Shown here piece by piece: positions 30,746-54,974 of a DNA stretch of 64,000 bases. Each line of letters begins with the position of its first letter. Within the stretch, counting starts at the first letter, position 1. Location: the NCBI GenBank assembly GCA_037447655.1, contig JBBHKE010003430.1, positions 1-64,000 on the forward strand. The letters run 5' to 3'. The notes below the pieces were generated by a model, which searched no databases, was not told the origin of the DNA, and saw only the letters and a program-made list of their open reading frames with translations. The translations under genes and the position numbers were made by a program. This DNA is from Zygnema cylindricum (Eukaryota; Streptophyta; Zygnematophyceae; Zygnematales; Zygnemataceae).

Positions 30746-30764
30746 CTCCCCTTATTTTCTAGTC
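30746..30764 (-). other. A1 polypurine tract
   Basis: On the minus strand gaaaataaggggag precedes the LTR start TGTAGAAATT. The same tract occurs in A2 and B. Confidence 0.75.
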
Positions 30765-32161: not shown

Positions 32162-32165
32162 TTGT
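32161..32165. other. A2 target-site duplication, left copy
   Basis: attgt on the left and cttgt at 38616-38620 differ by one base. Without A2 the A1 frame reads gctcgattgtgttatct, as in the uninterrupted A2 sequence near 34630. Confidence 0.8.
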
Positions 32166-33214
32166 TGAAACTCTAAGACCTCCATAAGTCCTCAGAGTGG
32201 ACAGCTTCCAAGAAGCCTCTAGGATAATCCTGACCCCTTTGTGTTTAAGCAAAAATAACTGCCACCCTGGCAGACAAAAACTTTGACCAACTTCACCCTT
32301 GTGAAGATAAGACTCCCTTGAGTCGATAGCAAAAAGAATCTCTGAATTTGCTCCCCTGAGCAGTAAGTTATGGAGGGTCAAAGTTGACCTTTTGTACACA
32401 AGCTCTCTGGGAGAGGGGGTCCTATCTTCTAATTTTTCTAAGTCCTATCTCTCTCACAGACTCTATCTACTGATGTACGGAACCAATCAGAATTGAGTTC
32501 CGTACGTAAAAGTACAGCTGCCGGTGTACTTTATAAACGGACATTGTACGACATGGCCAAAATGTCGACACATGTCAAATCCGGATTCGGTGCCATAATC
32601 TCCGGAGATTCCACAATCCAACGGAATTTGGCCACGCGTCATCCGATGTGGCGATGGCCACAAACCGCCAAAATCTTCCTCCGGGATCTCGGCGCTAATC
32701 CCGGCCGTCCGATTAAATTCGGCTTTAATCGTAGCCGTAATAAATACATGCGCGGTATTTGTTTCTTTTACGAAACATATGCGCGGTACTGATTTTTGTC
32801 CGTACCGTAAGTCGTACATTATATATTACTGGATCTATGTATCCCGTAATTCATTTCAGTTAAATGGTTTATCGCTTGTATACATATGTAAATAATTATC
32901 AAACTATATGCTATGTAACACTACCGCTAGATTAAACGGCTAAGGCTACCGGCTATTTCGTGTTTGCCGGCCGGCAGGTACAAGGATCAAATCCTGCCGC
33001 CGGCACATACATTTTAATTAAATAAATAAACCCTAATATAAAATTCCCGTAAACCTCAGGATAGCCAAGGTAGCCATGGCTCTAGCTTCCTCTCCAATTT
33101 CTCACTGACTGCGACAAGTTTGAGAGTTGGAGAGAGAAGTTAGAGATAGAATGCCTCGACTTCTATATTTCTTTTCAGACCTAGAAAATACTAATAAAAC
33201 CATTAGTTTCTACA
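32166..33214 (-). repeat. A2 3' LTR
   Basis: 1049 bp, plus-strand TGAAACTCTAAGACC ... TTTCTACA, equal in length to 37567-38615. It contains a strong hairpin at 32965-33005. Confidence 0.92.
32965..33005. other. GC-rich hairpin / tRNA T-arm-like motif in A LTR
   Basis: TGCCGGC pairs with GCCGGCA and GGCAGG with CCTGCC around a loop containing aaggatcaaat, giving a 13-bp stem with one bulge. The loop part GGATCAAATCC resembles a pol III B box. Homologous motifs occur in A1, B and C LTRs. Confidence 0.6.
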
Positions 33215-33233
33215 CTCCCCTTATTTTCTAGTC
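33215..33233 (-). other. A2 polypurine tract
   Basis: On the minus strand gactagaaaataaggggag lies directly before the 3' LTR start. Confidence 0.8.
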
Positions 33234-34790
33234 AATCTTTAATTTCAGACCACACTTCTCCCTGCAAAAAATTAGCTTAGGGGAAGGCACAGGTTTGGTC
33301 ATTATATCTGCTACCATCTCACTATCTGGTCTGTACTCTAAACTGATTATTTTGTTTTCTACTTTCTCTCTAACAAAGCTGAGTCTGATGTCCATGTGTT
33401 TGGCTTTAAAATGGTGTTTAGGATTGGCAGAAATAGCGATTGCTGCCTGATTATCACAAAATATTTTCTGCACACCACTCTTAAGGTGACCAAGCTCACC
33501 AAGCAAAGACTTGACCCACATCAATTCTTTTACAGCAGAGCAAGAGGCCATATACTCAGCCTCCATGGTGGACTGAGCAATAACCTTTTGATGTTTGCTA
33601 CTCCAACAGCAAGCCCCATCACCCACATATAATACATATCCAGAAGTACATCTCCTCATCGGAGCATCACCATAACTGGCATCACTCCAAGTAGTGATGT
33701 CAGTATTCTCCCCACCCAAATGCAACTATAGATCTCTAGTTCCTACCAAGTATCTAAGGACTCTCTTAGCTGCCTCCCAATCCTTCTTAGTGGGAGCATT
33801 TAGACTTCTACTCAGCACTCCTACAGCTGCAGCTAAATCCGGCCGGGTACAATTCATAAAATAGATTAGACTTCCCACTACTTGCCTGTAAGGAATAGTC
33901 TGCATGAACTTCTGTTCTTCAGGAGATAATTCCTTGTCTAAGACTATGACTCCTTCTTCCTCACTCCCCTCACTTCCCTTCTTCAATTCCATTGGAGTTG
34001 TACAACTATTAGCTTTATCCATTTGAAATTTTTCAAGCATGTTCCCTATTGCTTCCTTTTGAGTCAATCTTATAATTTTTCTTTTTCGGTCTCTCTCTAC
34101 TTGAATTCCCAAAATATATTTTGCTTCCCCCATATCCTTCATTTCAAATCTCCCCTTAAGATCGGTTTTCAGTTTATTAATCTTTTCCATTGATTTACTT
34201 AAAACAAGCAAATCATCAACATAAATTGCAATAAATATAAAACCTTCCTCATCTTCGAAAACATAGATTGAGTGATCTGAGCTGATCCGAATATATCCTA
34301 GACCGGTGAGAAACTCATCAAGCTTCTTATTCCACTGTCGGGGCGCCTGTTTCAAACCATAAAGAGATTTAATCAGCCGGCATACCTTACTCTTCTCTCC
34401 TTCTTCCACAAACCCTTTGGGTAGTCGCATGAAGATCTCCTCTTCTAATTCTCCATGCAAAAAGGCTGTTTTGATGTCCATCTGGTGCACTTCCATGTCT
34501 TCTGCCGCTGCTAAAGTGAGAAGTATGCGGACGGAGGGAAATCTGACCACCGGGGCAAAGGTTTCCTCGTAGTCAATTCCTTCCTTTTGTGTAAATCCCT
34601 TTGCCACTAATCTGGCCTTGTAGCGCTCGATTGTGTTATCTGGGTTCAGTTTTAGTTTGAAAACCCACTTACAACCGATTGGTTTTTGGTTAGGTGGACA
34701 GTCCACCAGCTCCCAAGTATCGGCTGCCATGATTGAAGCCATCTCCTCATTGATGGCTGTCTTCCACCGGTTTTTTTCTGGACAAGTCAT
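33228..34790 (-). pseudogene. A2 RT and RNase H, one nonsense codon
   Basis: 34790-33726 is an open 354-residue [67 protein letters not shown] and catalytic YVDDLLVLSKS. A TAG replaces the Trp of GTRDLW at about 33726 and is not shared with A1. RNase H continues in the same frame (TTWSDASYGDAP, STMEAEYMASC, FCDNQAAIAI, HMDIRLSFVRE) to the stop at 33228. All catalytic residues are present, so a single base change separates this part from an intact frame. Confidence 0.9.
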
Positions 34791-35042
34791 CGCCTCTCGA
34801 TAAGTTTGAGGTTCATCTTGATGAGATAGTTTAGTTACCTTGTTATTAACCTGTTTTTCTTGCAGTCTTTTGCTACTTCTCCTCCCTCCCTCAAAATCTG
34901 AGGCCGGAATAGATAGTTCTCGTGGATTCTTTCAAACAAACTCGGCTTCTCCCCAATCCCTTGATTCCGAATCAATTTCCACCACGTCTTCCGCTTCGAG
35001 TAGAGTTGTCACTGGAGTTTCCACAGCCGAGTCCTTTTCGGT

Positions 35043-36230
35043 CTAATTTGTTCCTGCAAGAATGTCATCTTCTCTAAAACCTGGATAGTTAGGAAGCTCA
35101 AAGTCATCAGAATTTTCTGACTCAAATCTGATTTTTACTGACTTTGTATATTTGAAGGGATCCACAGACTTTCCTTCATCCATAACTACTAGATGCTTTA
35201 CTAAGATTATATCTGCTCTTTTTAGATCATAAACTCTATATCCTTTAACATCCTCATCATATCCTAAAAAGTATCCCGGTTTTCCTTTAGGATCTAGCTT
35301 CCAATTGGACCGATCAGTATCTAGACTGAATACTTGACTGCCGAAAACCTTTAAATGAGATAAGTCTGGTTTCCGGCCTGTCCATCTCTCATAAGGTGTT
35401 TGATCTTTTTTAGCTGAAGTAAGAACTCTATTTTTGAGGTAATTAGCACAGTTCATTGCTTCTGCCCAAAACCTTTTTCCTATCTTCTTATCCGACAACA
35501 TACTTCTAGCACTATCACTTAGTGTTCTATTTAACCTTTCAGCTACCCCATTCTGTTCAGGATTTTCTAGCACTGTCTTTTGGTGTTGAACCCCATCTTC
35601 CCTCAAAAAATCCTCAAACTGGTTAGAAGTATACTCTCCACCATTGTCACTCCTTACTCTCTTGATTGGAGTTTCATGGAGTTTTTCGCTCCATGCTTTA
35701 TATTGTCTAAAACAGTCCTCAGCCTCTGACTTGTTTTTCAAAAAATATACTCGGGAATACCGAGACCAATCATCAGTTATAGTCATCATAAATCTCTTCC
35801 CCCCCGGTGAGGGCACTCTAGCCGGTCCCCAAATATCTGTGTGTACTAGATCTAGAAGTTTTTCTCCCTTGTAGGTGGCTGTTTTTGGAAAGGGTAATCT
35901 GTGTGCTTTACCTTGAGCACACCCACTACAATCACTTATATCATCACTCTCACTGAACTGAATCCCTTCCACCACTCCCATCTTTTTCATCTCTCTTAAC
36001 TTATCTAGATTCACATGCCCAAGCCTCTTATGCCACATCATAATATCATGAACACCAGCATAATAAAGTTTCTTCGTTTCATTACTTAAGATCAGCCTAA
36101 ACATCCCATGGCTACCTTTCTTAGCAATGAAATAGACATCCTCCTAAAAACTAGGAGTAAAGACTCCTTCCCTAGTGCTAGTGAAAAAACCCTTATCATC
36201 TAATACAGATGTAGAGATGAGGTTTTTGTT
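35043..36230 (-). pseudogene. A2 pre-integrase, integrase and linker
   Basis: 36104-35043 is a 353-residue open frame: MWHKRLGHVNLDKL and CSGCAQGK (zinc domain), then HTDIWGPARV, SDNGGEYTSNQF and NGVAERLNRT with the full DDE triad, and GYDEDVKGYRVYDL. A linker rich in Glu/Ser (35042-34791) joins RT and contains a stop (AEFV*KNPREL, about 34930). Upstream of 36104 a TAG interrupts TPSF*EDVYF near 36146; the same stop is present in A1. Confidence 0.9.
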
Positions 36231-36587
36231 CAACTCCGGAATAAACAATACATCGGAGAGTGTTACTATGGATGTCTTTCTTTCGACTTACACTTTCAAA
36301 TCTACCAATCCTACAAGAGTAGTGGTGACTATCCTCCCATCCCCGTACTCTATCTCTACAGTGGGAATATTTCTTATCTTAGTGAACTGGTGCCTATCCT
36401 TACACATGTGCATAGAGGCACCCGAATCTATAATCCAGCCTGCTTCACCTTTCAATCCACCGTAAACACATTTCTGCTTTCGTGGAATTTCTACCTCGTT
36501 TGTCGCTTCCAACTCCTCATCCAATAAGAGCTCATCGTCCTCGTCTTCGAATTCCACCTCATGAACGTGTGTTAGAAGGGCTTTTTT
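36230..36587 (-). pseudogene. A2 aspartic protease segment
   Basis: An open frame of 89 residues (36557-36288) contains GWIIDSGASMHMCKDRHQF with an intact DSG and an acidic lead. It is bounded by stops: TAG at the gag end (36588) and TAA in DLKV*VERK (about 36285). Both stops also occur in A1, so they predate the split of the two copies. Confidence 0.85.
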
Positions 36588-37586
36588 CTATCCTCTGGGG
36601 GTTCCACCAATCTGCCCCTCCTTTATCAGAGCCTCGGTTAGCTTAGTGCACCTCGCCATATAGTGCCTTAGATTCTTACAAAAATGACATAAACACTTGG
36701 GAGCCCTTGGTCCAAACTCGTCGGTTTGATTTTTCTGCTCCCTCCCTCCATAGTTTTCGGCCGGTCTGTGGAAATCCTTGTTCCTCCAATCGGTCGCAGT
36801 TGCCAAGGCTTGGCCACTCTTTCCTCCCCTTCGGATCTCAATCATATTCTCCCGAACGAGAATCATCCCTACCACTGAGTTCCATATCCACCTTGAGTCC
36901 GGCAAGTCCTGCACACGGTCGACTATGTTCTCGAACTCATCAGGTAACTTCATTAGTAAACAGTTAACTTTTTCTTTTTCACTAAAAACTTTACCCGCAC
37001 TCTCTAGCTCCATGAAGAGTGTAGCAAGCTCATTGCAAAAATCCAACATATTTCCCCCTTTGTATACATACTCCTTAACTTTCTGATCAGCCAACTGTTG
37101 TTGCTGAATCGTACCACTTCGGTACAGCTCTATGAGAGCCATCCAAAGATCGGATGCCCTCTCTACCTGCAAATGAGGACATGCAAGTCCTTGAGTGAGA
37201 TGGCGTAGGATGAAGTGCTTTGCCGCCATATTGTTGAAGTCCCAGGTTTCAGTATCATTCTCCTCGTTCCTCGGAATAGGTGACATGAATGCTAAACCAG
37301 TTGCTATTGGTGTGGTCGCCTCCTTCTCCTTTCCTTTGTCCACCACCTCTCCTTCCTTTGTTTCCTCCGTTGAAGGTGAATCCTCTTTCCTGGTGAATCT
37401 GCTTCCTTTAAACCCTGGAGGAATTCCAAGACTTGATGGACGCCCCAATTGTCCACTCACTATCCCCCAAAACCTTTTTTCGCATAGAGCTCCTATCATC
37501 ATACTTTCCCAGTATATGAAGCCAGTTCCATTAAAGATTGGTACTCTAGAGGGTGGGCCCATAACCTGAAACTCTGAGACCTCCAT
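36588..37586 (-). CDS. A2 Gag (332 aa)
   Basis: Open from ATG-37586, which lies in the LTR (MEVSEFQ), through the PBS (VMGPPSRVPIF) to TAG at 36588. The gag core is standard for copia (YWESMMIGALCEKRFWGIVSG, FILRHLTQGL, YRSGTIQQQQLADQKV, GGNMLDFCNELATLF, LLMKLPDEFENIV). It ends with a zinc knuckle CHFCKNLRHYMARC. It would form the particle and bind RNA. The product is intact and differs from A1 Gag at only three residues. It may still supply Gag to the non-autonomous elements, which is inference. Confidence 0.9.
   Translation of the reverse strand: MEVSEFQVMGPPSRVPIFNGTGFIYWESMMIGALCEKRFWGIVSGQLGRPSSLGIPPGFKGSRFTRKEDSPSTEETKEGEVVDKGKEKEATTPIATGLAFMSPIPRNEENDTETWDFNNMAAKHFILRHLTQGLACPHLQVERASDLWMALIELYRSGTIQQQQLADQKVKEYVYKGGNMLDFCNELATLFMELESAGKVFSEKEKVNCLLMKLPDEFENIVDRVQDLPDSRWIWNSVVGMILVRENMIEIRRGGKSGQALATATDWRNKDFHRPAENYGGREQKNQTDEFGPRAPKCLCHFCKNLRHYMARCTKLTEALIKEGQIGGTPRG
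37552..37566 (-). other. A2 primer-binding site, tRNA-iMet anticodon-arm type
   Basis: Minus-strand GGTTATGGGCCCACC is perfectly complementary over 15 bases to the anticodon arm of plant initiator tRNA-Met. It starts directly at the LTR border and encodes Val-Met-Gly-Pro-Pro of Gag. Confidence 0.88.
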
Positions 37587-38615
37587 AAGTCCTCAGAGTG
37601 GACAGCTTCCAAGAAGCCTCTAAGATAATCCTGACCCCTTTGTGTTTAAGCAAAAATAACTGCCACCCTGGCAGACAAATACTCTGACCAACTTCTTCTT
37701 TGTGAAGACAAGACTCCCTTGAGTTGATAGCAAAAAGAATCTCTGAATTTGCTCCCCTGAGCAGTAAGTTATGGAGGGTCAAAGTTGACCTTTTGTACAC
37801 AAGCTCTCTGGGAGAGGGGGTCCTATCTTCTAATTTTTCTAAGTCCTATCTCTCTCACAGACTCTATCTACTGATGTACGGAACCAATCAGAATTGAGTT
37901 CCGTACGTAAAAGTACAGCTGCCGGTGTACTTTATGTACGGACATTGTACGACCTGGCCAAAATGTCGACACATGTCAAATCCGGATTCGGTGCCATAAT
38001 CTCCGGAGATTCCACAATCCAACGGAATTTCGCCACGCGTCATCCGATGTGGCGATGGCCACAAACCGCCGAAATCTTCCTCCGCGATCTCGGCGCTAAT
38101 CCCGGCCGTCCGATTAAATTCGGCTTTAATCGTAGCCGTAATAAATACATGCGCGGTATTTGTTTCATTTACGAAACAAATGCGCGGTACTGATTTTTGT
38201 CCGTACCGTAAGTCGTACATTATATATTACTGGATCTATGTATCCCGTAATTCATTTCAGTTAAATGGTTTATCGCACGTATACATATTTAAATAAATAT
38301 CAAACTATATGATACGTAACACTACCGCTAGACTAAACGGCTAAGGCTACCGGCTATTTCCTGCCTGCCGGCCGGTAGGTACAAGGATCAAATCCTGCCG
38401 CCGGCACATACATTTTAATTAAATAAATAAACCCTAATATAAAATTCCCGTAAACCTCAGGATAGCCAAGGTAGCCATGGCTCTAGCTTCCTCTCCAATT
38501 TCTCAGTGACTGCGACAAGTTTGAGAGTTGGAGAGAGAAGTTAGAGATAGACTCCCTCGACTTCTATATTTCTTTTCAGACCTAGAAAATACTAATAAAA
38601 CCATTAGTTTCTACA
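37567..38615 (-). repeat. A2 5' LTR
   Basis: 1049 bp matching 32166-33214 with few differences. Its last 20 bases (minus strand) hold the gag ATG. Confidence 0.92.
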
Positions 38616-39200
38616 CTTGTGTTATCTCGGTTCAGTTTAAATTTGAAAACCCACTCACAACCGATTGGTTTTTGGTTAGGTGGACAATCCACTAGCTCCC
38701 AAGTATCGGCTGGCATAATTGAGGCCATCTCTTCATTGATGGCTCTCTTCCACCGATTTCTTTCTCGAGAAGTCATCGCCTCTCCATAAGTTTGAGGTTC
38801 ATCTTGATGAGATAGTTTAGTTACCTTGTTATTAACTTGTTTTTATTGCAGTCTTTTGCTACTTCTCCTCCCCCCCTCAAATTCTGAGGCCGGAATGGAT
38901 GGTTCTCGTGGATTCTTTTGAACAAACAGGGCTTCTCCCCTATCCTTTGATTTCGAATCAATTTCCTCCACGTCTTCTGTTTCGGGTAGAGTTGTCACTG
39001 GAGTTTCCAGAGCTGAGTCCATTTTGGTCTGATTTGTACCTGCAAGAATGTCATCTTCTCTAAAACTTGGATAGTTAGGAAGCTCAAAGTCATCGGAATT
39101 TTCTGACTCAAATCTGATTTTTACTGACTTTGTATATTTGAAGGGATCCACAGACTTTCCTTCATCCATAACTACTAGATGCTTTACTAAGATTATATCT
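38616..39200 (-). pseudogene. A1 integrase-RT linker and start of RT
   Basis: After A2 the A1 frame continues: WKRAINEEMASIMPADTWELVDCPPNQKP (38776-38620) and, across stops near 38840, the Ser/Glu-rich linker with EGGRRSSKRLQ (39169-38843). It joins the RT part at 32161 once A2 is removed. Confidence 0.85.
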
Positions 39201-40120
39201 TCCCTTTTTAGATCATAAACTCTATATCCTTTAACATCCTCATCATATCCTAATAAGTATCCCGGTTTTCCTTTAGGATATAGCTTCCAATTAGACCAAT
39301 CTGTTTTCTAGTTTGAATACTTGACTGCAGAAAACCTCTTAATGAGATATGTTTGGTTTCCGGCCTGTCTTTCTCGCATAAGGTGTTTGATCTTTTATAG
39401 CTGAAGTAAGAACTCTATTTTTGAGGTAATTAGCACATTTCATTGCTTCTGCCCAAAACCTTTTTCCTATCTTCTTATCTGACAACATACTTCTAGCACT
39501 ATCACTTAGTGTTCTATTTAACCTTTTAGCTACCCCATTCTGTTCCGGGTTTTCGGGAACAGTCTTTTGGTGTTCGACCCCATCTTCCCTCAGAAAATCC
39601 TCAAACTGGTTAGAAGTATACTCTCCACCATTGTCACTCCTTATTCTCTTGATTGGAGTTTCATGGAGTTTTTCGCTCCATGCTTTATATTGTCTAAAAA
39701 AATCCTGAGCTTTGGACTTGTTTTTCAAAAAATACACTCGGAATAGCGAGACCAATCATCAGTGATAGTCATCATAAATCTCTTCATCCCCGGTGAGGGC
39801 ACTTTAGCCGGTCCCCAAATATCTGTGTGTATTAGATCTAGAATTTTTTTTCCCTTATAGGTGGCTATTTTACGAAAGGGTAATATGTGTGTTTTACATT
39901 GAGCACATCCACTACAATCACTTATATTATCACTCTCACTGAACTTAATCCCTTCCACCACTCCATCTTTTTCATCTCTTTTAACTTGTCTAGATTCACA
40001 TGCCCAAGCCTCTTATGCCACATCATAATATCATGAACACAAGCATAATAAAGTTTCTTCGTTTCATTACTTTAAACCAGCCTAAACATCCCATGGCTAC
40101 TTTTCTCAGCAATGAAATAG
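39201..40120 (-). pseudogene. A1 integrase, degraded
   Basis: Pieces are CSGCAQCKTHILPF (zinc domain with changes), HTDIWGPAKV, SDNGGEYTSNQF and NGVAKRLNRT. The last shows the catalytic Glu replaced by Lys. Frames break near 39300, 39740 and 39960. It is visibly more diverged from A2 than the gag/protease half. Confidence 0.85.
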
Positions 40121-40572
40121 ACATCCTCCTAAAAACTAGGAGTAAAGACTCCTTCCCTAGTGCTACTAAAAAAACCCTTATCATCTAATACAGATGTAGA
40201 GATGAGGTTTTTGTTCACCTCCGGAATAAACAATACATCGGAGAGTGTTACTATGGATGTCTTTCTTTCGACTTACACTTTCAAATCTACCAATCCTACA
40301 AGAGTAGTGGTGACTATCCTCCCATCCCCGTACTCTATCTCTACAGTGGGAATATTTCTTATCTTAGTGAACAGGTGCCTATCCTTACACATGTGCATAG
40401 AGGCACCCGAATCTATAATCCAGCCTGCTTCACCTTTCAATCCACCGTAAACACATTTCTGCTTTCGTGGAATTTCTACCTCGTTTGTCGCTTCCAACTC
40501 CTCATCCAATAAGAGCTCATCGTCCTCGTCTTCGAATTCCACCTCATGAACGTGTGTTAGAAGGGCTTTTTT
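40121..40572 (-). pseudogene. A1 aspartic protease segment
   Basis: The 89-residue segment (40542-40273) equals that of A2 except for one residue (HLFTK for HQFTK), with DSG intact. It is bounded by the same stops as A2 (gag end, DLKV*VERK and TPSF*EDVYF near 40131). Confidence 0.85.
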
Positions 40573-41571
40573 CTATCCTCTGGGGGTTCCACCAATCTGC
40601 CCCTCCTTTATCAGAGCCTCGGTTAGCTTAGTGCACCTCGCCATATAGTGCCTTAGATTCTTACAAAAATGACATAAACACTTGGGAGCCCTTGGTCCAA
40701 ACTCGTCGGTTTGATTTTTCTGCTCCCTCCCTCCATAGTTTTCGGCCGGTCTGTGGAAATCCTTGTTCCTCCAATCGGTCGCAGTTGCCAAGGCTTGGCC
40801 ACTCTTTCCTCCCCTTCGGATCTCAATCATATTCTCCCGAACGAGAATCATCCCTACCACTGAGTTCCATATCCACCTTGAGTCCGGCAAGTCCTGCACA
40901 CGGTCGACTATGTTCTCGAACTCATCAGGTAACTTCATTAGTAAACAGTTAACTTTTTCTTTTTCACTAAAAACTTTACCCGCACTCTCTAGCTCCATGA
41001 AGAGTGTAGCAAGCTCATTGCAAAAATCCAACATATTTCCCCCTTTGTATACATACTCCTTAACTTTCTGATCAGCCAACTGTTGTTGCTGAATCGTACC
41101 ACTTCGGTACAGCTCTATGAGAGCCATCCAAAGATCGGATGCCCTCTCTACCTGCAAATGAGGACATGCAAGTCCTTGAGTGAGATGGCGTAGGATGAAG
41201 TGCTTTGCCGCCATATTGTTGAAGTCCCAGGTTTCAGTATCATTCTCCTCGTTCCTCGGAATAGGTGACATGAATGCTAAACCAGTTGCTATTGGTGTGG
41301 TCGCCTCCTTCTCCTTTCCTTTGTCCACCACCTCTCCTTCCTTTGTTTCCTCCGTTGAAGGTGAATCCTCTTTCCTGGTGAATCTGCTTCCTTTAAACCC
41401 TGGAGGAATTCCAAGACTTGATGGACGCCCCAATCGTCCACTCACTATCCCCCAAAACCTTTTTTCGCATAAAGCTCCTATCATCATACTTTCCCAATAA
41501 ATGAAGCCAGTTCCATTAAAGATTGGTACCCTAAAGGGTGGGCCCATAACCTGAAACTGTGAGACCTCCAT
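40573..41571 (-). CDS. A1 Gag (332 aa)
   Basis: Open from ATG-41571 in the LTR (MEVSQFQ) through the PBS to a TAG at 40573, with the same core and zinc knuckle CHFCKNLRHYMARC as A2. Three substitutions separate it from A2 Gag (Glu/Gln at 5, Ser/Phe at 13, Gln/Arg at 46). It looks translatable, although its LTR promoter is largely deleted. Confidence 0.88.
   Translation of the reverse strand: MEVSQFQVMGPPFRVPIFNGTGFIYWESMMIGALCEKRFWGIVSGRLGRPSSLGIPPGFKGSRFTRKEDSPSTEETKEGEVVDKGKEKEATTPIATGLAFMSPIPRNEENDTETWDFNNMAAKHFILRHLTQGLACPHLQVERASDLWMALIELYRSGTIQQQQLADQKVKEYVYKGGNMLDFCNELATLFMELESAGKVFSEKEKVNCLLMKLPDEFENIVDRVQDLPDSRWIWNSVVGMILVRENMIEIRRGGKSGQALATATDWRNKDFHRPAENYGGREQKNQTDEFGPRAPKCLCHFCKNLRHYMARCTKLTEALIKEGQIGGTPRG
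41537..41551 (-). other. A1 primer-binding site
   Basis: GGTTATGGGCCCACC on the minus strand, as in A2, directly at the LTR border. Confidence 0.85.
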
Positions 41572-41830
41572 AAGTCTTCAGAGTGGATAGCTTCCAAGAA
41601 GCCTCTAGGATAACCCATACCCCTTTCTGTTTCAACAAAAACAACTACCTCCCTGGCAGATAATAACTCTGACCAACTTCACCCTTGTGAAGGCAAGACT
41701 CCCTTGAGTCGATAGCAAAAAGAATCTCTGAATTTGCTCCCCTGAGCAGTAAGTTATAAAGGGTGAAAGTTGAACTTTTGTACAAAAGCTCTCTGGGAGA
41801 GAGGGTCCTATCTTCTAATTTTTCTAAGTC
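41552..41830 (-). repeat. A1 5' LTR, truncated to 279 bp
   Basis: Only the U5-side part remains (TGAAACTGTGAGACC ... tttttctaagtc). At 41831 the sequence changes to the G methyltransferase. U3 and promoter are gone. Confidence 0.88.
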
Positions 41831-42758
41831 TGCTCCTTTCCGATAAGCGTGACTACGAGGGAAAGAAACCAAAGTTGGGAGTGCTCTCCGTGGTAATCCT
41901 GGCTGGTTGCACTGAAAGAAAAAAAAGCAGTCTGGTCGTGTCACAAGGGTGGCCATCCTACCTTCCCCAAGTATTTGCTGCACCGAATTCTTCAGGTCAG
42001 GAATTTGCTTGTCGAACAGTCGTCAGAGTACTTGAAGCGGGATCATATTGGTCCAATATGCCATTACTCTGTGTGCACGGGATCCCATCTGTGCGGCGTC
42101 GAAAAACCAAAGAAGCTCCTAAAATCAGGGTTACGTGATTCCAGCTGTCCACAACGTGTTTCCTTTTATCATCTGCCAGGTTGACATTTTCAAGAACGTA
42201 CCCCATCACTGTGTCCTGATGTTATTGAAGCCACGTGATTATTTCGATCATTCAGTGAAATGTTCCACTTCGGTGGTCTTGATGCCCTTTTCCTTGTCCC
42301 GCTAGGGAGTATCCCTGACAAGGCCAGCCTGCCAACACCAAATCCACTCTTCCCAAACTGGGTAGATGGTGGGCCATGATGTTTTCTACATTTTTGGGAA
42401 GACTTCGGTGAGCTTTGGAAAAGACTGTCACGGGAAGATGTTGAAGATATAGGTGATGAAGTTGGTGGAGGCGGTGTTCGCTGACAGCCCGCGCCTCGGG
42501 TGATATTTCCACGGGTGTGTATGACTCCACCAGATATCTTGTTTTAAAAACCGCTTCCAAATTGGAACTAATTCCTGAAAATAGAGATAAAATACGCAGT
42601 TTGGAATCGGGGACTGCCAATGACACCACTTGTCGATTGAACTCTTTGATACCGAACTTGGTTTTGGAAGCATTAGACAATGGTGTAGAAACGGTTTCCT
42701 TCAATGTTAAGGCTGAAAATGCCTTATCCACTCCCCACCGGAGTTTTGCTGCCTGCAA
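41831..42758 (-). pseudogene. Cytosine-5 DNA methyltransferase domain in element G
   Basis: The minus strand encodes the motifs of a C5-methyltransferase in conventional order. Motif I is LRILSLFSGISS (about 42590-42565, SAM binding) and motif II is YTPVEISPEAR. Motif IV is VLAGWPCQGYS with the catalytic Cys (Pro-Cys-Gln at 42323-42315), and motif V is RSGTF (about 42270). Motif VI is YVLENV (Glu at about 42194). Motif VIII is AQMGSRAHR followed by YWTN (about 42100-42050), and motif IX is RALPTLVSFP (about 41870). Two stops (TGA after GTFH at 42252, TAA about 27 bp on), a frameshift near 42130 and another stop near 42030 inactivate it. Motif X is lost at the A1 border. The AHRxRxYWxN block recalls DNMT3-type enzymes; plant DRMs have rearranged motifs and do not fit. 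It follows the G protease directly, so it was part of the pol polyprotein. Confidence 0.85.
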
Positions 42759-43555
42759 TAATCTATTCTTATATTCCTCTTCCCACCGCTTAGAAATTGG
42801 GAATTGCTATATTTCTTTGGCGATATCTGTAGAACTGCTAAACAATTCCTTAGGAGATGATGTAGTATACACCGAGTAGCAACCAGACACTGGGACATTT
42901 GTCTTCCCCCGGTTTCATAAATCCAAAGGAGCCACCACTTTGGTTCCTTCCGGATTTTAGGGGTCTTGGACGGTACATTGTTCCTTCCACACGCTCAAAC
43001 TCATATTGAGCCGGTCCAAGTGGCCATTCCCAGCAGAATTTCGAATTGAGTCCCTTCCACCACCAAGAAGGGAAGCTCAATTTTCACCCGTTGGCCTCCA
43101 TCATCAGAAAACTCGATTTCCATGGCCTTGATTATTCCATGGATTGGTTGATTGCCGCTACTTACGATGCTTAAGCAGATATTGCTTGGGCAAAATTCAG
43201 GCCGAGGTTCCTCGGGCATTTTTTTGCAAAGCAGAGGTGGTAATGAGGTTGGGGAGAGCTGCGATGTCGACCACAGCGTCCTCGTATCCCCCGTAACCGT
43301 TGAGCGTCAAGTTCCCGGTCCGGTTCAGTATAATAGCCACTAATAAGGCTTTGTAGTCCCTATCCACTATAGGGGTTTTAGGATCGGTGGACAAAAATAA
43401 TGCGATTGGCGGATTGGTCATGTCTACCCCCCTCTTTCCAGAGTGGATCTCCTCTCCCAATGCCTGAATAAGGATTTCTTTAGACAGGTAATGGGAGGAT
43501 GCTAGAGTCTTCACGTGTGTGAGGGCATAGGGCATGAGGTGTCGCACTAGCATGA
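42759..43555 (-). pseudogene. G aspartic protease and linker
   Basis: The frame 43553-43197 (118 aa) ends with a protease-like block LTLNGYGGYEDAVVDIAALPNLITTSAL, split here as GYGGYEDAVVDI and AALPNLITTSAL. DIA (about 43268) stands where DTG/DSG is expected. The next frame (43219-43001) continues with IHGIIKAMEIEF, LPFLVVEGTQFEILLGMATW, matching the second half of a retropepsin (ILG motif). Stops and a shift lie between them. A poorly conserved linker (43000-42760) joins the methyltransferase. Confidence 0.65.
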
Positions 43556-44530
43556 CAACCAGTTTCGGAATGGGAGTGTGGCTTTCGGTGAAGATGGGGA
43601 TGAGTTCGGTTCTTGTAGATCTTGATCTTTTCCTTCTATCTCACTTTCGGAGCCTGAATCTTGGATTGGAGGTGTTTGGGGAGTGTTATTTTCCGGGCGT
43701 TTTGCCATATATCTCTCAAATTAGTCTCGATTGTCCTTTTTCTCTCGTTCCATTGACTCTTTTTCTCCCTGCTGTTTCTCGTTTTGGTAATTTTTGAAAC
43801 CGGGAGGCAATTTAGAATTGGGAGGAAGAGATGTGGGTTGATTGGGTTTGATTCCTAGGCCGATGTCGCTATTCAGCATTACTCCATTGTATATGGTATA
43901 CTGCCAATTGGTGCGGTTTGAGATGATTCTGTTCAGTTTGGAGTAATCTGTGCTGTCTGAAACACAGCTGTTTTTGAGGTAGTCTGTGGGTGTTTCCGTG
44001 AGTAATCCATGGCTGAAATAGGCTATGGACAACAGGTTCCGGCATGGAGGGCATTTGGGGGTTCCAAATCCCAGCCCTATAGGTCGTCATCGTTGGCACC
44101 CGCTATGCCTTGAAGCTTAAGCTCTGCAAGCTTCTGTAACAAGTCGTGTCTCTGCTTATGGAGTTGTTGCATTGCAGTAAGAGGAGCAGGTCGGGAAGAA
44201 GATCCCAAGCGGAGGGCAGCCAACTTTGCAGCCATGGCGGCTAGCTGCTGACTCTCCTGTTGTATGATGATCTTTGGCGTAAGCTTGGGAGAAGCAGCCG
44301 GGGCTCCTTTAGGTCTCTTCAGCGTGGACATAAGTAGGCGCCGCCAAAGGTAAAGAAGTTGGAGTGGGAGAGGGTTAACGATTGTTTCTCCTCCTCTAGT
44401 GAACAAAGCAAATTGCATCATTTCCTTCGCTACTCCATTTTTCCGGAAACATTGCCCTTCCTTTTGCCCTAGAAATCCACAAGCTTTGCACTTGGCGCCC
44501 TTGGTAGTATATTTACTCTAGATTTCGTTG
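43556..44530 (-). pseudogene. G nucleocapsid part of gag, interrupted by a T LTR fragment
   Basis: On the minus strand 44520-44400 reads CKACGFLGQKEGQC, a CCHC zinc knuckle with His changed to Gln. It is followed by a Pro/Ala/Lys/Gln-rich frame (44421-44077) with a heptad-like Leu/Gln stretch (QLAAMAAKLAAL, MQQLHKQRHDLLQKLAEL). A 148-bp T LTR fragment lies at 43887-44034, after which charged gag/pol linker frames lead to the protease. Confidence 0.55.
43887..44034 (+). repeat. T LTR end fragment in G gag
   Basis: The last 148 bp of a T LTR, in opposite orientation to T, from tatatggtatactgcc to GGCTATGGACAACA. No other LTR part or internal region adjoins it. Confidence 0.85.
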
Positions 44531-47500
44531 GAGATTTGAGCGGCATCAAAATTTGGGAGTTTGATTTGCCGCAACTGTGATTGGGACATCTTAGAGGTTT
44601 CGCTCCGGGGAGTTAGACAGTAAGTCTCTTTGGTTACCGGTGTCTTATCCTCCCCCCTCCCTCCGTTGTGCCTTTCTTGTTGTTTCAAGGTCATTTTTAC
44701 ACGTTCTTTCTCCCATTCCTAGAGTTTCAAAGCCAGCTCCGGTTTAAGTTTCCTGGTGTATTGCTTCCACCCATGACCCGGTTGTTGACAATTCATGCAA
44801 TTATAGAGGAATACTCGCTCATCTTCTCACAAAGCTAGTTCTGACTCGCTGTCAGTCACTTGCTTCCCTTTAAGCTTTCGCAAAGATTGAAGTTCTGCTT
44901 GTTCCTCCTTATTCAAGGAGGTTTCCCGGGCGAATCCTACCAAATTTGCTCAGGCTTTGCCAGTCACGGCCTTCTCCCTTCCCTCACAATGGAAGAAGTG
45001 ATCATATAATTTCATCGCCACCAGTGAGATTTCCTTAGGTGAGGGATTGATGTCCTAAATTGCCTTTCCGACAATCCAGTTATCTAAAGCAGTTTGCCTT
45101 GTCGGTCCGAATGAATTGTGGACAGCGATAAAGTAGTTGGTTGCCATTGCTGGAAGATCAATCGTGGACAATTTCGTTTTCTAACAAAGGCTTGAGAGTC
45201 GGTTGAAGAGAGTTTAGGAACCCTCAATCTTCAAGCATCGGAATTCCATGAATTCCTTGATTGTTGACTCATTCTTCACTGTGTAGAGGAGTCTCTAGTT
45301 GTTTGGCAGAGTTGTACAAGGGTAGGGATTAGCAACCATGCGGGTTGTTGCCTGGGCTGCCTGAAATGGCTTGCAGCTGGTTAACATAGGCACTTCCTTG
45401 TGTCTGCAGTTTCATGTCCTGGGTGAAGGTAGTGGTTACAAGGGTCGCAGCCACTGCCGCTAAGTCAGCCTCCGCTTATACAACTGACGCATTAAGGGTT
45501 GGATCCGAAATCTTGATGCTAGAAGCCATCAAAAGAGGTTGACGCTCCTTGTAATCTATCAACGCCCCTCTAGAAAGGTAGTTGACCATCATGGGGAAGA
45601 GGGTTGTCATCAAGTCATCCGTAATAGCTCCTCCCTTGTACTTGTTGATTTCGGATTGTGTGAAAGATTTCCACAACAACTCGAAATGTGAAAATGTGAT
45701 CCACGAGCTATCTCCTGTAAAGATCCGAATGTCTCCCATTTCTTTTTCTTCTTCTGCAGAATTGGTGAAATTGGAATAGTAAGGCCCGGTGGGGCTGACA
45801 AACTGAGCTGGCGAGATGACTCTAGTATCCTTTTCCTCGCGATCAGAACCGTGTCCTTCTCTGATAGAAGGTGCGGCCCCTGAAGTGTAAATCCCCCTCC
45901 CACAGAGGAAGTACCAGCGCTAGGAAGTATGGTTAGGGGAAGGATGTTCCCCACTATTCCTCTATATCTAGGAGAATATTGTGCCTCCGTGAGCACGGTC
46001 TCCACCGATGGAATGTGGAGACGAGGCTTGTTCAAAGGCTTCACTGGGATAGCCGGTTGTGGAGACGGGGAAGGAGATTGAAACGGAGACTGCGGAGCTC
46101 TTGTGAGGAAAGGTGTATGTCTCCTTGTTTACCTCCTAAAGGTCTTGGGAGGTGGAGTTCCGGAGCTGGAGGCAGGAGATCGTCGGTGAGGAAGTGAATA
46201 AGCAGGTCGGATTTGTAGGGTAACAATAGCACACCAGGCGACCCACGGACCGCTGCAGCAAGAGAAATAGATAGAGAAAGAGATGAGGCGGAACAGTCTC
46301 GGGGCTTTGTGGTGAGTCTTGGGGAGTGGGAGGAATAAGGCGGAGGAGGAGAAGGTGGGAGCTTCGGAGAGCCTGTAGGAGAAGTGGAAAGAGGTGTTGG
46401 TGCCCTCAAGGGAATGTGAATCCTCTCGTCAGGTTGTAACTCCACCGAAGCCTCCAAGGTAGTTGATACCTCCATTGAGACAAAGGTAGTGTCTCCTCTT
46501 AGAGCCGAAGCGAGTTCAGAAGGTAAATCTGCACCCAAACCCTTCATATTAGGTCCTGTGTTTTCCTCCCCTTTACGCGGAAGAGGAGGCTCTCGGCTTG
46601 TTTTCAAGAACAAAATGTCGCGCTGAGCGTTGGCAAGAGGAGAGGTCTCCACCGCTAGTGCTTCTGAATGTGGCTCTATCTTTTATGTAAGAGGAATCTT
46701 CCCGCTAAAAATCCCACTTGTCCGATGCCGAGCTTCCTTGATAAGCCTCAATTCATGTTCCCAAGCCTTTCTTCTTTCTTCCTCTAAGGCCTCCCAATCT
46801 ACCGTGGCGGGTCTGGCCCTCGCCGTATCCTATCGTTGGGATTTTAGAACCTCCACTAGTTCCTTGGCTTTTTCGACCACTTTAGTGAAATCGGCTATCC
46901 CCACCCCTGAGATTTCGGGATCATTGGATCAGGCCCGCCACCATCCATCGGACAAATCTTCTGGCCGCATACTTAGAACCTCTAGATCAGTTTGTTTGGG
47001 ATCACGATAGGGGGGATCACGAGGTGGTGTAGGAGCTGGTTTCTCGGTTGATGCGGACAAAAGAGTTGGGGAAGTCTCCTCCTTGGGAAGCAGTGCAAAT
47101 CTCCCCTTACTGTCACGGTGGTCAAACCTCTTTCCCCTCAATAGATCTCATGCTTCCCTCTCGATACCCCCTTCTCCTCTACGATGCCGCAACGAGGCAC
47201 GCCCCTACAAAGGTCTGCTAGATGCGTTGTCTTGAAAGGAAGATGGGGGAGGGCGAGAATAGGGAGCTTTCTGTGACTAGTCCTGAACCGACTGTGATAG
47301 CTGCTCTCCGAAGAACTGATCAAAATCTCCACCACCCCTCCCACTGGTCTAACCACTCTGACTCGATTTGTCCGAGCCACTCTTTGTACCAACTCCTTCT
47401 TCACCTTGAGCTCATGGAGGTCGTGAAAGGCAAAGAGTTCCTTAAGACTTGGGCAACGTGGATCCGTCAAAACCGTAGGGTCAATCTGGATCTTGGCCCG

Positions 47501-48009: not shown

Positions 48010-48416
48010 TCGCATTTGTTCCATCAAAACCCATTGTCCTTATCCAGGGGGTTTCAGCTTACTCCGGAGAAGTAACTCCAAAGCAAAGAAAACTCCAGCT
48101 GAAAACACAAATGCACTACCATGTAGATATATATACAAATAAATATGATTCGCTTTCCAATTTCAACAATATCACCTTGCCCATGAAAAGAGAATAAATG
48201 ATAAAAAATGTGAAACATAGCGAAGCGAGCTCAACATACCCTGCAATCAACGATGAAAATTAGAAAAAGGCGACCCCTCTCATGATAATATCGTCAAAAA
48301 AAATTGGTACTCCTGTAACCTTCGGTGTCCGCAGCTCGGAACCAACGAGACTCTTCTCGGTTCATAACAGCAAAAAAGTCAAAAATCACCCAAAAAGGAA
48401 GATAGTGCCAACTACC
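48010..48416 (-). repeat. G 5' LTR, part 1
   Basis: Matches 25656-26060 (gaagtaactccaaagcaaag, gatgaaaattagaaaaaggcgacccctct). It stops at 48416, where B is inserted with a ctacc duplication, and resumes at 58970. Confidence 0.78.
48412..48416. other. B target-site duplication, left copy
   Basis: ctacc, repeated at 58965-58969. The uninterrupted LTR at 26050-26075 reads gtgccaaccacccgcccgg. Confidence 0.85.
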
Positions 48417-49424
48417 TGAAACTCTGAGACCTCCATTGGCCCTCAGAGTAGGCAGATCCAAAGAAGCTAATCTAGATAGTGCCGACTCCAAACTTGATAT
48501 AAACCCAAATAAGTGACCACTTGACAGTCAGAACCCCAATATAGATCCACCCTTGTGAAATAACACTTTCTGTGTGCTCAGTTCCACCACAGAATGCAAA
48601 GTTTGAATATGAGATTTGGACACATTAGCCCACTTTGACTTTCCCTTAGAAGTGCACCCACCCTGGCGCACAAAAACAAAGACCGACTACACCCCTGTGT
48701 AGCCTGGACTCCCTTGAGTCTGCAGCAAAAAGAATCACTCAAAATGGTCAAGTAAATTGATAGTTATGGCCGGCCAAAGTTTGCCATTTATACGGGGTGC
48801 TCTCAAGGAGAGGCAGCTACCTACCCAAAATTTTCTAAGTCCTATTCCCCCTCTAAAACTCTATCTACTAAAGTACGGCACCAATCAAATTACTATGTCG
48901 TACAGAAAAGTATAGGTGCCGGTGTACTTTCTGTACGGCCATTGTACGACATGGCCAAAATGTCGACACGTGTCAAATAAGGATTAGTTTCTGTAATCTC
49001 TGAAATTCCTGTAATCCAATGTTATCACTCCACGTGTCATCTGACGTGGCAAAGACCGTAAAACGCCAAAAATGCATTTTTCGTGATCGCGCCGCCTATC
49101 GTGGTCGCCGATCAAAACCGGCTATAATCCTAGACGGTGAAATTCGATGCGCGGTATTTGTTTCGCTATCAAAACAAATGCGCGGTATCCGTTCTTTCCC
49201 CATACAGTACTTCGTACTAAATAACAGTGTATCTATGCACTAAGTATCTATTCGCCGTTAAACGAATTAATCTACATGTAACGATTTATATATTTATCAA
49301 ACCCAATATATCGTAATATGTTTCCTAAACCTAACGGCTAGAGCTAACGGCTAATGCAAATTGACGTACGGCAGAGACCAGGATCAATTTCTAGGTCCGC
49401 CAACTTACTTTAGGTAAGTCTACC
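48417..49424 (-). repeat. B 3' LTR, outer part
   Basis: TGAAACTCTGAGACCTCCATTGG to gtaagtctacc; it continues at 55630 after C. It carries a CACGTG box and a T-arm-like motif near 49380. Confidence 0.88.
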
Positions 49425-50314
49425 TGAAATTTTGTGGTCTCCATTGACCCACAGAATGAGCAGCCTATGTAAAGCCTCTAGGATAATATTTGCGCCTCTA
49501 CTTTCCCGCTGAATAAGCGCCGCCCAGGCACACAAATATTCTGACCACTCTCACCCTTGTGAGGACAAGACTCCCCTGAGTCAAACGCAAAAAAAATCAC
49601 TGAATTTGCTCACCTGAGCAGTAAGTTATGGCTGGTCAAAGATGACATTTATAGTTACAAGCTCTCTTAGAGAGAGAGGTACCTAAATATTACTAAGTCT
49701 CGGTCTGCCTACTCACGACTACCTACTATTAAACCCTAGTCCAATAGGAACACTATAAAGTACAAGAAGGTACAATGGGCGATGTACTTATTGTACAACT
49801 ATTGTACGACAAGGTCTACAAGGTGACACCTGTCATATCGGAAGCCATGGTTCCTCCTCCCATCTTCTCCGGTATCAAATAATGTGGCGCCACGTGGCAC
49901 CGCGTGACGCTATATCCGTATGCCGCCGAAAAGCTCACTTTGCGTGGCGGCTATAATGCCGGCCGTCCGATCAAAACATATTTTACACGGTTCAGATTCG
50001 CGTACATGCAGAAATTGCTCATTTTGGTTAGTCTGCTTTTAATTAGTTGTTTTGTTAATGTTTATATATTTATGAAACCTGTCACGTGAATCGTTTCGTA
50101 ACGCCTTAATGGTTAAGGCGTTAGGCTATAAAGAATCTAGAGGTCACATGTTCAAATCTAGACCTAGGCACCATTTTAGCCAAAATACCCTTAACTGCAA
50201 AAACTGCCACTTTCTAAATATGGCGGCAGCCATGGCGCGCCTTTGATCCTTACTCTCTTTCTTTAAAACAAAACTAAAATAGGGAAGTGAACTATTTATT
50301 ACCTCTTTTCAACA
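49425..50314 (-). repeat. C 3' LTR
   Basis: 890 bp, plus-strand TGAAATTTTGTGGTC ... TTTTCAACA. It nearly equals 54744-55629. Confidence 0.9.
50098..50173 (+). other. tRNA-like motif with perfect hairpin in C LTR
   Basis: AACGCCTTAA and TTAAGGCGTT form a perfect 10-bp stem around TGG (50100-50122). The region also reads like a tRNA: A-box-like taatggttaagg, B-box-like tgttcaaatct 40 bases on, and a terminal gcacca. No cloverleaf acceptor stem is obvious, so a working tRNA is not claimed. The same motif is at 55418-55493. Confidence 0.55.
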
Positions 50315-50333
50315 CTCCCCTTAATTCCTAGTC
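50315..50333 (-). other. C polypurine tract
   Basis: Minus-strand gactaggaattaaggggag directly before TGTTGAAAAG. Confidence 0.8.
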
Positions 50334-52433
50334 ACTTTTCAATTTTAATCCACAAATTTCTCTGCAATAAATCAACTTAGGGGAAGGCACTGCTTTTGTC
50401 ATCATGTCTGCAATCATTTCTCTATCAGTTTGATGAACCAGTTTAATAATTTTATTTTCTACCTTCTCTCTGACAAAGCTTAGTCTAATATCCATATGCT
50501 TAGCTTTGAAGTGATGTTTCGGATTAGCTGCAATCGAGATAGCAGCTTGATTATCACAAAAAACATTTTGAGTTCCAGACTTCATGAACCCAAGTTCTTC
50601 AAGAAGAGATTTAACCCACATTAATTCTTTGGTGGCAGCACAGGAAGCCATGTATTCAGCCTCCATAGTGGACTGAGCAACTACTTTTTGTTGCTTGCTA
50701 CTCCAACAACATGCACCGGATCCAATTTGCAACACATATCCAGTCGTACACCTCCTTAAAGGCACAATTCCATAACTAGCATCACTCCAAGTGGTGATGT
50801 CAGTGTGCTCCCCTCCCAAATGCAACCATAATTCCCTTGTCCCCACCAGATACCTCATCACCCTTTTGGCAGCCTCCCAATCTCTCTTTCTTGGTTCATT
50901 TAGATTTCTACTAAGGACACCTACAGCTGCAGCTATATCTGGACCGGTACAGTTCATAAATTAAATTAAACTGCCTACAATCTGTCGATAAGGGATATTT
51001 TCCATAAATTTTCTTTTTATCTCGTCCATCTCATCATTAATGATGAATATTCCTCCCTCTTCACTCCCCTCACTCACTTTCTTCAAATCCATGGGAGTAG
51101 TACATCCGTTTGCTTTCTCCATTTGAAATTTTTCTAGCATATTACCGATTGCTTCTTTTTGAGTGAGTCTTATAATTCTATTCCCTCTATCTCTCTCCAT
51201 CTGAATTCCCAAAATGTACTTTGCTTCGCCAAGATCTTTCATATCAAAACTGCTTCTAAGATCCCGTTTTAGTTTGTTAATTTTATCTAAGGACTTGCTT
51301 AAGACCAACAAATCATCCACATAAATAGCAATAAATATCACTCCATTCTCATCCTCAAATAAATATATAGAGTGATTTGAACTAATTGTGATATACCCCA
51401 AACCGGTCAGAAATTCGTCGAGCTTTATATTCCACTGTCGCGGGGCTTGCTTAAGCCCATAGAGTGATTTTATCAGTTTGCAAACTTTGTTTTCTTCCCC
51501 ACTTTTCACGAATCCTTCCGGTTGCCTCATGTAAATTTCTTCTTCCAACTCTCCGTGCAAAAAGGCAGTTTTAATATCCATCTGGTGGATTTCCATATCC
51601 TCCGTTGCGGCTATACTTAAAAGGATTCTAACAGAAGGAAATCTGACTACAGGTGCAAAGGTTTTTTCGTAGTCTATCCCCTTTTTCTGTGTATAACCTT
51701 TTGGAACTAACCTAGCTTTGTACCTCTCAATGGTATTATCCGCGTTTAATTTAAGTTTAAACACCCACTTACATCCGATCGGTTTTCGGTCCGGTGGACA
51801 ATCTACCAACTCCCATGTATTGGCTTCCATGATAGAGGCCATTTCTTCATTTATAGTTGTGATCCACCGGCTACTTTCTGGAGTGTTTATGGCCTCTAAG
51901 TATGTTTGAGGTTCATCTGGGTGAGACATCTTTGTGAGTTGGTTATTTACTTGTCTTTCTTGAAGTCGTTTACTACTTCTTCTTCCCCCTTCAAAATCGG
52001 ACGCCGGTATGGAAGGCATCCTTGGGTTTCGTTTTGGGAAATTTTCAGCTTCCCTATCTTCCAATTCCGGTGTCTCGTCAAGTTCCTCATCGGTTTCCAC
52101 TTCGTATTGTGGCGTTGCCTCGGATGTTGTCCTTTCCTCCTTCTCCTTTCGTAGATCTGCAGATTTTTCTTTTTCTCCCTCTTCCTTCTCTTCATTTTCA
52201 AAGTCAAAGTCAGAAAACTGATCCGTTTCAAATCTGATTTTGACTTCCTTATTATATTTGAATGGATCAATGGACTTCTCTTCATTCATCACCACTATGT
52301 GTTTTACCAAAATTATATCTATCTTTTTCAAGTCATACACTCGGTTTCCTTTTGTGCTCTCATCATATCCTACAAGATATCCTGGTTTCCCTCTTCCCTC
52401 TAACTTCCATTTAGTCTTATTGGAATCGAAACT
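50328..52433 (-). pseudogene. C linker, RT and RNase H
   Basis: One long frame (52340-50961, 459 aa) holds the end of integrase, a Glu/Lys-rich linker with FEGGRRSSKRLQ, and [39 protein letters not shown] and YVDDLLVLSKS. A TAA replaces the Tyr of SLIYF at about 50958. RNase H (50957-50328) follows in frame with TTWSDASYG, STMEAEYMASC, FCDNQAAISI and HMDIRLSFVRE. Apart from that stop the catalytic residues are kept. Confidence 0.9.
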
Positions 52434-53690
52434 CTAGACTTGACTTCCGAACACTCTCAAACTAGACAAATCAGGCTTTCTTCCTGTCCACCTCTCATAC
52501 GGAGTTTCCTCCTTATTTGCTGAAGTTAGGACTCTATTTTTGATGAAATTAGCATAGTTCATAGACTCAGCCCAAAACTGCAGCCCTATCCTCTTATCAC
52601 TTAACATACATCTGGACATATCTCCTAAAGTTCTATTCACTCTTTGTGCTACTCCATTTTGTTCCCGATTAAAGGGAACAGTTTTCTCATGATGAATTCC
52701 TTCTTCTTTAAGATATTCTTCAAAATCCCTTGAGGTGTATTCTTTCCCATTATCACTTCTTATCTCTTTTATTGAGGTTTCATGTAGCTTTTCACTCCAT
52801 ACTTTATACTCTTTGAAACATCTTAATACCTCTGACTTATGTCTGAGAAAGTATACCTTCGTGTATCTAGACCAATCATCTGTGATAGTTAACATCCATC
52901 TTATCCCCCCATGTGAGGCATACCTAGCAGGTCCCCAAACATCAGTGTGAACTAGATCTAATACTTTCTCTCTCCTAAATGTGGTTGCGTTTGGAAATGG
53001 AAGTCTATGAATCTTCCCTTGGGCACATCCACTACAATCATCAAAGGTCTCATCATCTTCAAAAGAAATACCCTCCACTATTCCATTTTTCTTCATTTTC
53101 TTTAATCTATCTAGATGCACATGCCCCAACCTTTTATGCCAAAGCATCATCTCACTTGCACACGAGTAGAAAACACTCTTTTCATTGCAAAGTACAAATC
53201 TGAACATTCCTTGACTGCCCTTCTCAGCTATGAAATAAACCTCATTATCAAAGCTTGCTGTGAAGATTCCTTTCCTAGTTCCTATTTCAAACTCATTTTC
53301 ATCTAGGACAGTTGTTGAGACTAGGTTCTTGCTAAGTTGTGGAATGTAAAGAACGTCTGAGAGTGTTACAAATGAGGCCTTTCCATCAACTTGAACCTTC
53401 AAGTCAACAATTCCAACAAGACTTGTGGTTTCTACTCTACCATCTCCGTACTCTATCTCAACTGTTGGGATCTTTCTCAGTTTAGTGAACCACCGCTTAT
53501 ATTTGCACATATGCATTCAAGCCCCTGAGTCTATGATCCACCCATCCTCGGGTGGATCCCTCTTACCTCCGAAAGCACACTTTTGTCTCCGTGGAATGTC
53601 GACATGATTTTCAGTGTTTTTTGGATTAAGAAGAAGCTCCTCAAGCTCCTCTTCAGGTTCAGTTTTTTCTTCCACTTCCTCATCAACAAC
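52434..53690 (-). pseudogene. C protease, pre-integrase and integrase
   Basis: Protease reads GWIIDSGA followed by TGA (about 53517), then a 360-residue frame (53516-52434). It has LWHKRLGHVHLDRL and CSGCAQGK, HTDVWGPARY, SDNGKEYTSRDF and NGVAQRVNRT. In the last motif the catalytic Glu is Gln, so integrase would be dead even without stops. A TAG ends the frame at FGSQV (52434). Confidence 0.9.
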
Positions 53691-54965: not shown

Positions 54966-54974
54966 CCTTTATAG
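54966..54974 (-). promoter_or_regulatory. TATA box of C
   Basis: Minus-strand CTATAAAGG, about 200 bp upstream of the gag ATG (54763). Confidence 0.55.

Follow-up and report, generated by a model that had tools for sequence, protein, structure and literature searches.

The stretch analysed here, positions 1 to 64,000 of Zygnema cylindricum contig JBBHKE010003430.1 (assembly GCA_037447655.1; "the window" means all 64,000 nucleotides), contains on its minus strand, at 42806-41832, a decayed and truncated C5-cytosine DNA methyltransferase (MTase) of the DNMT3 type, which is borne by a retroelement and lies in the pol region of a Ty3/Gypsy retrotransposon. The window copy is old and dead. The best explanation, including the mechanism proposed below, is that it belongs to a multi-copy Ty3/Gypsy family with the order LTR-gag-PR-(TAG)-MTase-RT-RNaseH-integrase-PHD-LTR (LTR, long terminal repeat; PR, protease; RT, reverse transcriptase), and we give this reading a probability of roughly 0.8.

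The MTase had been noticed in a first-pass annotation made from the letters of the window, and every motif listed there is present in the minus-strand translation. One frame holds FSGIS, VEIS, GWPCQGYS, RSGTF and ENV, a second frame holds AQMGSRAHR..YW.N and ALPTLVSFP; the frame changes at about 42.11 kb, and there are more in-frame stops. Motifs I to IX stand in the conventional order, as had been claimed, whereas plant DRM enzymes, described as DNMT3-related (PMC5890265), have a rearranged one. The longest open piece (42806-42252, 184 amino acids) scored 26.2 bits with PF00145, above the cut-off of 22 (E 6.7e-6), and motifs I, IV and VI follow in order, which is what the annotation had proposed to look for in a C5-MTase; the remaining open pieces submitted from the window MTase gave no match to PF00145. 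Five domain profiles run on the reversed window gave no match each. A family profile, built from relatives with the window left out, matched two pieces:

42105..42614, minus strand: N-terminal MTase piece with motifs I, II, IV, V and VI (profile E 6.4e-51; carries the PF00145 match; profile match 42614-42105)
41832..42106, minus strand: C-terminal MTase piece with motif VIII-like AHR and motif IX-like ALPTLVSFP (profile E 1.4e-27 over 42106-41834; 51.6% identity to protein P0033 over 93 columns)

At 41831 the MTase runs directly into a truncated copia LTR, which cuts it off, so that motif X is missing.

The source genome contains many further copies. In this genome of 352.8 Mb (2,689 contigs), a first look with PF00145 flagged 782 candidates; 123 of them were scored, every one of which matched. 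Every sixth listed place was then taken with 10 kb around it (n=20), and 19 of these places carry an element MTase. The remaining place, L040, holds a chromomethylase-like host exon, matched by three PDB sequences including 4fsx, which we take to be maize ZMET2, at 99 bits, with the next DNMT1 entries at 49. Around the MTase, PR was found upstream in 17 of the 20 places, and RT, integrase and PHD finger downstream in 15, 16 and 14; PR, RT and integrase occur together in 14 places, and in 12 the PHD finger is present as well. Four additional places were picked for long frames. L059 has a single frame of 2,395 codons over PR, MTase, RT, integrase and PHD finger with two gag knuckles upstream in frame, L060 has 1,757 codons spanning PR, MTase and RT, and in L061 and L062 a TAG is followed by 1,525 and 1,520 codons, respectively, spanning MTase, RT, integrase and PHD finger. 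An intact gag-PR-MTase-RT-integrase copy in one frame, sought on the suggestion of the first-pass annotation, thus exists in L059, and its view of the block as a former pol domain and not a host exon is borne out. The position that it gave, between PR and the expected RT, holds for the genomic kin; in the window copy no RT precedes the integrase. The Ty3/Gypsy order PR-RT-RNaseH-integrase, with RVT_1, RT_RNaseH, H2C2 and rve, was found in the genomic copies and in the related contig L029 described below, with the window copy lacking RT. Direct end repeats are identical in L059 (533/533) and L043 (361/361), in each case truncated by the end of the fetched stretch; at least two copies therefore look recent. 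In ten of the 12 copies checked no such pair was found within 10 kb. L039 and L046 showed no RT downstream of the MTase, and the frame end of L039 resembles, by eye, the end of the window copia LTR, which may mean that copia elements inserted in this region more than once.

In the MTase tree, the window pairs with L057 (support 100/97) within lineage A, and the nearest protein from outside the genome is P0039 (98/96). Lineage B (100/100) comprises L043-L045, L048, L049, L053, L054 and L058. The RT tree, in which the Marchantia rows are short, gives the same groups and places L061 and L062 in lineage A and L059 in lineage B; L032, L033, L034, L035, L038 and L060 were given a lineage without a tree. 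The groups shared by both trees fit co-inheritance of MTase and RT and do not prove a single capture. The tree positions of P0036, P0040, P0044 and DNMT3A are uncertain because of long branches, as was that of the window before the genomic kin were added. Judged from their sequences, the intact MTases of lineage A look constrained: the eight copies form 28 pairs, and the 17 with usable synonymous divergence (dS) have a median ratio of nonsynonymous to synonymous divergence (dN/dS) of 0.23 (0.06-0.43), the pairs not being independent and the close pair L032-L039 (dS 0.007, ratio 0.78) being excluded. Ten pairs are saturated, with dN of 0.18-0.21. The median dN/dS for RT in this lineage is 0.06 (6 pairs), and the three intact MTases of lineage B gave no usable pair.

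Between PR and MTase, the window contains a stop codon:

42807..42809, minus strand: amber TAG followed by CAATTCCC, candidate readthrough site

We searched 31 stretches, which cover 30 distinct places because one occurs twice, for any codon before CAATTNCC upstream of the MTase. The CAATTNCC site is present in 14 of the places, the window included, and the preceding codon is TAG in all 14; in 13 it is in frame with the MTase start. The window stop is therefore best read as a family feature, probably a recoding site, and not as decay, and the conservation of the amber codon suggests a stop-codon readthrough signal. CARYYA is a readthrough context after a stop codon, and the sequence after the amber of L029, CAATCA, fits it.

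Relatives outside the genome were found in two protein searches. The first yielded seven among 2,526 candidates, the second, with the MTase part of L029 as query, 38 among 7,994 scored candidates, six of which are named Marchantia polymorpha, one Calypogeia fissa and one Closterium. Among all 45 proteins, PR precedes the MTase in 30 and RT follows it in four. In three, P0038, P0041 and P0044, which are related polyproteins, the MTase sits not between PR and RT but between RT-RNaseH and integrase-PHD; two more have MTase-integrase-PHD with no RT between. L029 itself, a 9,285-bp contig, turned up when bacterial and archaeal assemblies were scanned. It had been binned with an uncultured cyanobacterium and is most likely a eukaryotic contaminant: a retrotransposon with a 127-base terminal overlap, probably assembled as a circle. 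Its order is gag-PR-MTase, TAG, RT-RNaseH-integrase-PHD in the same frame (PHD: PF00628 E 4.3e-10). Proteins of its clade stop shortly past the MTase, and in the closest of the 25 examined the last residues are alike. Since the amber follows the MTase in L029, the enzyme would be made at the Gag level there and at the Pol level in the window family.

Among published elements, the nearest relative is KnitGypsy-Dnmt3 of Klebsormidium nitens (de Mendoza et al. 2018, PMC5890265), a Gypsy element with an intronless, non-rearranged Dnmt3 domain in Pol that is under purifying selection; compared by description, the likeness lies in this non-rearranged domain inside a Gypsy Pol. This charophyte case agrees with the remark in the first-pass annotation that captured MTases have been reported in algal lineages. 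According to a figure legend, the repeats of KnitGypsy-Dnmt3 are DIRS-like, whereas direct end repeats were found here in two of the 12 copies checked, and the available text of that report does not mention an amber codon between PR and MTase, a PHD finger or two lineages in one genome, as seen here (PMC5890265). SymbioDIRS-Dnmt3 and SymbioLINE-Dnmt of dinoflagellates are likewise retrotransposon-encoded DNMTs but reside in DIRS and LINE elements; SymbioDIRS domains methylate CG in yeast, and the authors regard the Gypsy element as having gained its MTase independently (PMC5890265, as far as its accessible parts go). A 2025 study also mentions, in the part available, DNMT3 in retrotransposons of streptophytes and dinoflagellates (PMC12344493). 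As in the window family, PR and MTase are joined in one predicted protein in Marchantia (P0027, P0029, P0030, P0031, P0034, P0035) and Calypogeia (P0025), and RT follows the MTase in P0030 and P0035. These MTases are 40-45% identical to the intact copies of the source genome, where they are among the best four; unlike the window family with its amber, the predicted proteins run from PR to MTase without a stop. The liverwort proteins extend this kind of MTase-bearing Gypsy to land plants. Our literature search of titles and abstract openings found no MTase-bearing Gypsy in land plants besides the charophyte report (PMC5890265), and a term search of PMC12885004 was negative too. As far as these searches show, the liverwort relatives, the PR/MTase amber, the PHD finger, the second MTase position and the two many-copy lineages in one genome are new.

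Cytosine methylation of transposons is viewed as a weapon of the host. For the family described here, we propose that ribosomes would stop at the amber and release Gag-PR, and that occasional readthrough would yield Gag-PR-MTase-RT-IN-PHD, so that the MTase would be packaged together with RT and integrase. The MTase might then methylate cytosines in the element's own cDNA or in the DNA of the insertion site before or at integration, with the PHD finger helping to read histone H3 at the target; we hold the odds of this last part to be about even. Possible, and clearly more speculative, is a wider history in which the DNMT3 Gypsy is an old streptophyte lineage that would have taken up the MTase once, kept it for long, moved it between the PR-RT and RNaseH-integrase positions, positioned it before or after a readthrough stop, with doses differing by lineage as a result, and combined it with a PHD finger; the enzyme would mark the DNA of its own element, which would thus integrate in methylated form.

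Several observations speak against the best explanation and its mechanism, in addition to the excluded pair, the dependence among pairs and the lack of usable pairs in lineage B noted for dN/dS. The window copy cannot act, since it lacks RT and motif X, and its context after TAG, CAATTC, is one letter off CARYYA. In L056 the amber is one base out of frame. The 16 places lacking the CAATTNCC site comprise 12 of lineage B, three of lineage A (L050, L051, L055) and one without an element MTase; the lineage B copies lack the amber site, and the frame of L059 continues uninterrupted from PR into the MTase. Downstream of the amber, conserved RNA structure is weak (covariation term -0.76 kcal/mol, from 11 of the 14 sequences). 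Deeper branch order in the RT tree differs from that in the MTase tree. Pattern searches did not find an ENV string in L059 and L060, nor AHR after the PCQ motif in L057. In the available part of its report, the KnitGypsy-Dnmt3 domain did not methylate in yeast, a result that its authors regard as inconclusive because human DNMT3B failed too (PMC5890265).

This yeast result, from the sole MTase of an LTR element tested there according to the accessible text (PMC5890265), would also suit a different role for the fold, such as RNA methylation, nucleic-acid binding or a structural part of the particle. The missing ENV strings would agree with such a role, as would the replaced proline of PCQ (WECQG in L043, L059 and L060 of lineage B and in P0032; PECKD in P0038). 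Nevertheless, among the 11 intact MTases read, all keep the Cys of W(P/E)CQG, nine keep ENV and ten the downstream AHR, and the fold of a family member (P0001) is closest to de novo DNA MTases; we consider the alternative role doubtful. Less probable still is that the shared amber arose as damage in a single master copy and was spread by its amplification, without serving as a recoding signal. Most amber carriers are close kin and lineage B manages without the codon, as this would predict, but the amber is kept in the window, L033, L047, L057 and the group of L042 even though dS between L057 and that group is saturated while dN is low, and in 12 of the 13 other copies an ungapped, position-by-position comparison of the 150 nucleotides from TAG gives only 44-59% identity with the window.

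As to the origin of the domain, direct acquisition of a bacterial or phage Dcm by the element is very unlikely. The window piece alone scored M.HhaI (E 0.03) and DNMT3C (E 0.035) alike in the PDB; its relative P0001, however, strongly prefers DNMT3 over DNMT1 and bacterial Dcm. The 50 VIA rows listed contain no DRM, an absence that carries no weight. In a tree with five viral contigs and L030 as a sixth outgroup row, the six Dcm rows (five viral contigs, one Streptomyces) stand apart from the 32 rows of elements and DNMT3A (100/100), the DNMT3A row being partial and its branch very long. All 28 MTase loci found on viral contigs are distant (28-48% identity). A host DNMT3 exon or processed host gene next to retroelement debris would account for the DNMT3-like sequence, and non-flowering streptophyte hosts are described in the available text as having DNMT3 too (PMC6453930). 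This candidate was ruled out and retains next to no probability, given the 14 sampled places with PR upstream and RT and integrase downstream, and the frames shared by MTase and RT in L059, L060, L061 and L062. For the preferred reading of an MTase-bearing Gypsy family, the many copies, the constrained de novo type enzyme and some identical end repeats make it testable whether the element gains from methylation, and the PR-MTase amber offers a simple handle on MTase dose.

As to the other modules of the window element, the profiles for PR, integrase and PHD finger matched on the MTase strand and in element order. Gag, PR and MTase occupy 47.2-41.8 kb, and the integrase with the PHD finger follows at 28.4-27.1 kb. 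The retropepsin-like block and the gag zinc knuckles that the first-pass annotation placed upstream of the MTase were recovered. Bases 2-5425 of L057 align to window 47207-41832 and bases 7600-9998 to 28422-26109, on either side of a copia array; thus 2,174 bp, which in L057 hold the MTase end, RT and RNase H, are missing from the window. With the RT profile, no RT was found between MTase and integrase, the sole match, at 18-19 kb on the plus strand, belonging to a different Gypsy. The LTR remnants are direct repeats: 59121-58964 and 48411-48049 together are 90.0% identical to 26219-25698 (518 sites, Kimura two-parameter distance 0.109). The features, all given on the minus strand, are:

25698..26219: 3' LTR remnant, start possibly near 26270 (26270-26109 is 93% identical to the same place in L057)
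27124..27255: PHD finger remnant downstream of integrase (family profile E 3.9e-5; PHD at the same place in L029)
27338..28422: Gypsy-type integrase (H2C2 and rve) in two frames (profile 28395-27961 E 1.9e-49, 27994-27722 E 4e-32; PF00665 E 7.7e-5, below cut-off)
28423..41831: nested copia array interrupting the element, truncated LTR at 41551-41831, far end at 28423 adjoining the integrase (self-BLAST; RVT_2, rve and gag_2 matches; L057 5426-7599 unmatched here)
43022..43358: retropepsin-like protease with degenerate active site (tblastn to P0039, 43358-43221, E 7e-6; profile 43231-43022, E 9e-4, 12 bits)
43888..44037: 150-bp piece of another repeat replacing about 160 bp of kin sequence (97% to 15876-16026, 93% to L044; L057 aligns on both sides)
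44041..47207: gag region colinear with L057, two degenerate CCHC knuckles at 44799-44758 and 44490-44449 (knuckles also in kin)
48049..48411: inner half of the 5' LTR remnant (junction and LTR comparison)
48412..58963: second copia-bounded insertion, interrupting the 5' LTR, target duplication GGTAG (junction sequences)
58964..59121: outer half of the 5' LTR remnant (89.9% to 26219-26062)

The host setting is better described as algal. GRAS gave 27 exon matches in the source genome (best 4.7e-54), and DELLA and AUX/IAA gave no match there, absences that are weak because the control genomes were prokaryotic. GRAS without DELLA or AUX/IAA fits a zygnematophyte better than a land plant, so that a zygnematophyte-type alga is likelier than the land-plant setting considered in the first-pass annotation.

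The window gave no hit in Rfam (gathering scores) or in a tRNA scan. The copia array is a tandem of LTR-internal-LTR-internal-LTR with partial internal regions, its two full LTRs being 97% identical, and it contains a solo-LTR-like insertion of 1.25 kb at 29168-30421. Among the 120 listed of 3,341 matches, the window copia RT shows identities of 34-57% with mixed source names. The piece at 44037-43888 resembles the starts of repeats at 12344 (97%), 15880 (97%) and 29172 (89%). The second decayed Gypsy, at 16953-19973 on the plus strand, has no match to the MTase profile and shows matches to RVP_2, RVT_1 and the integrase profile.
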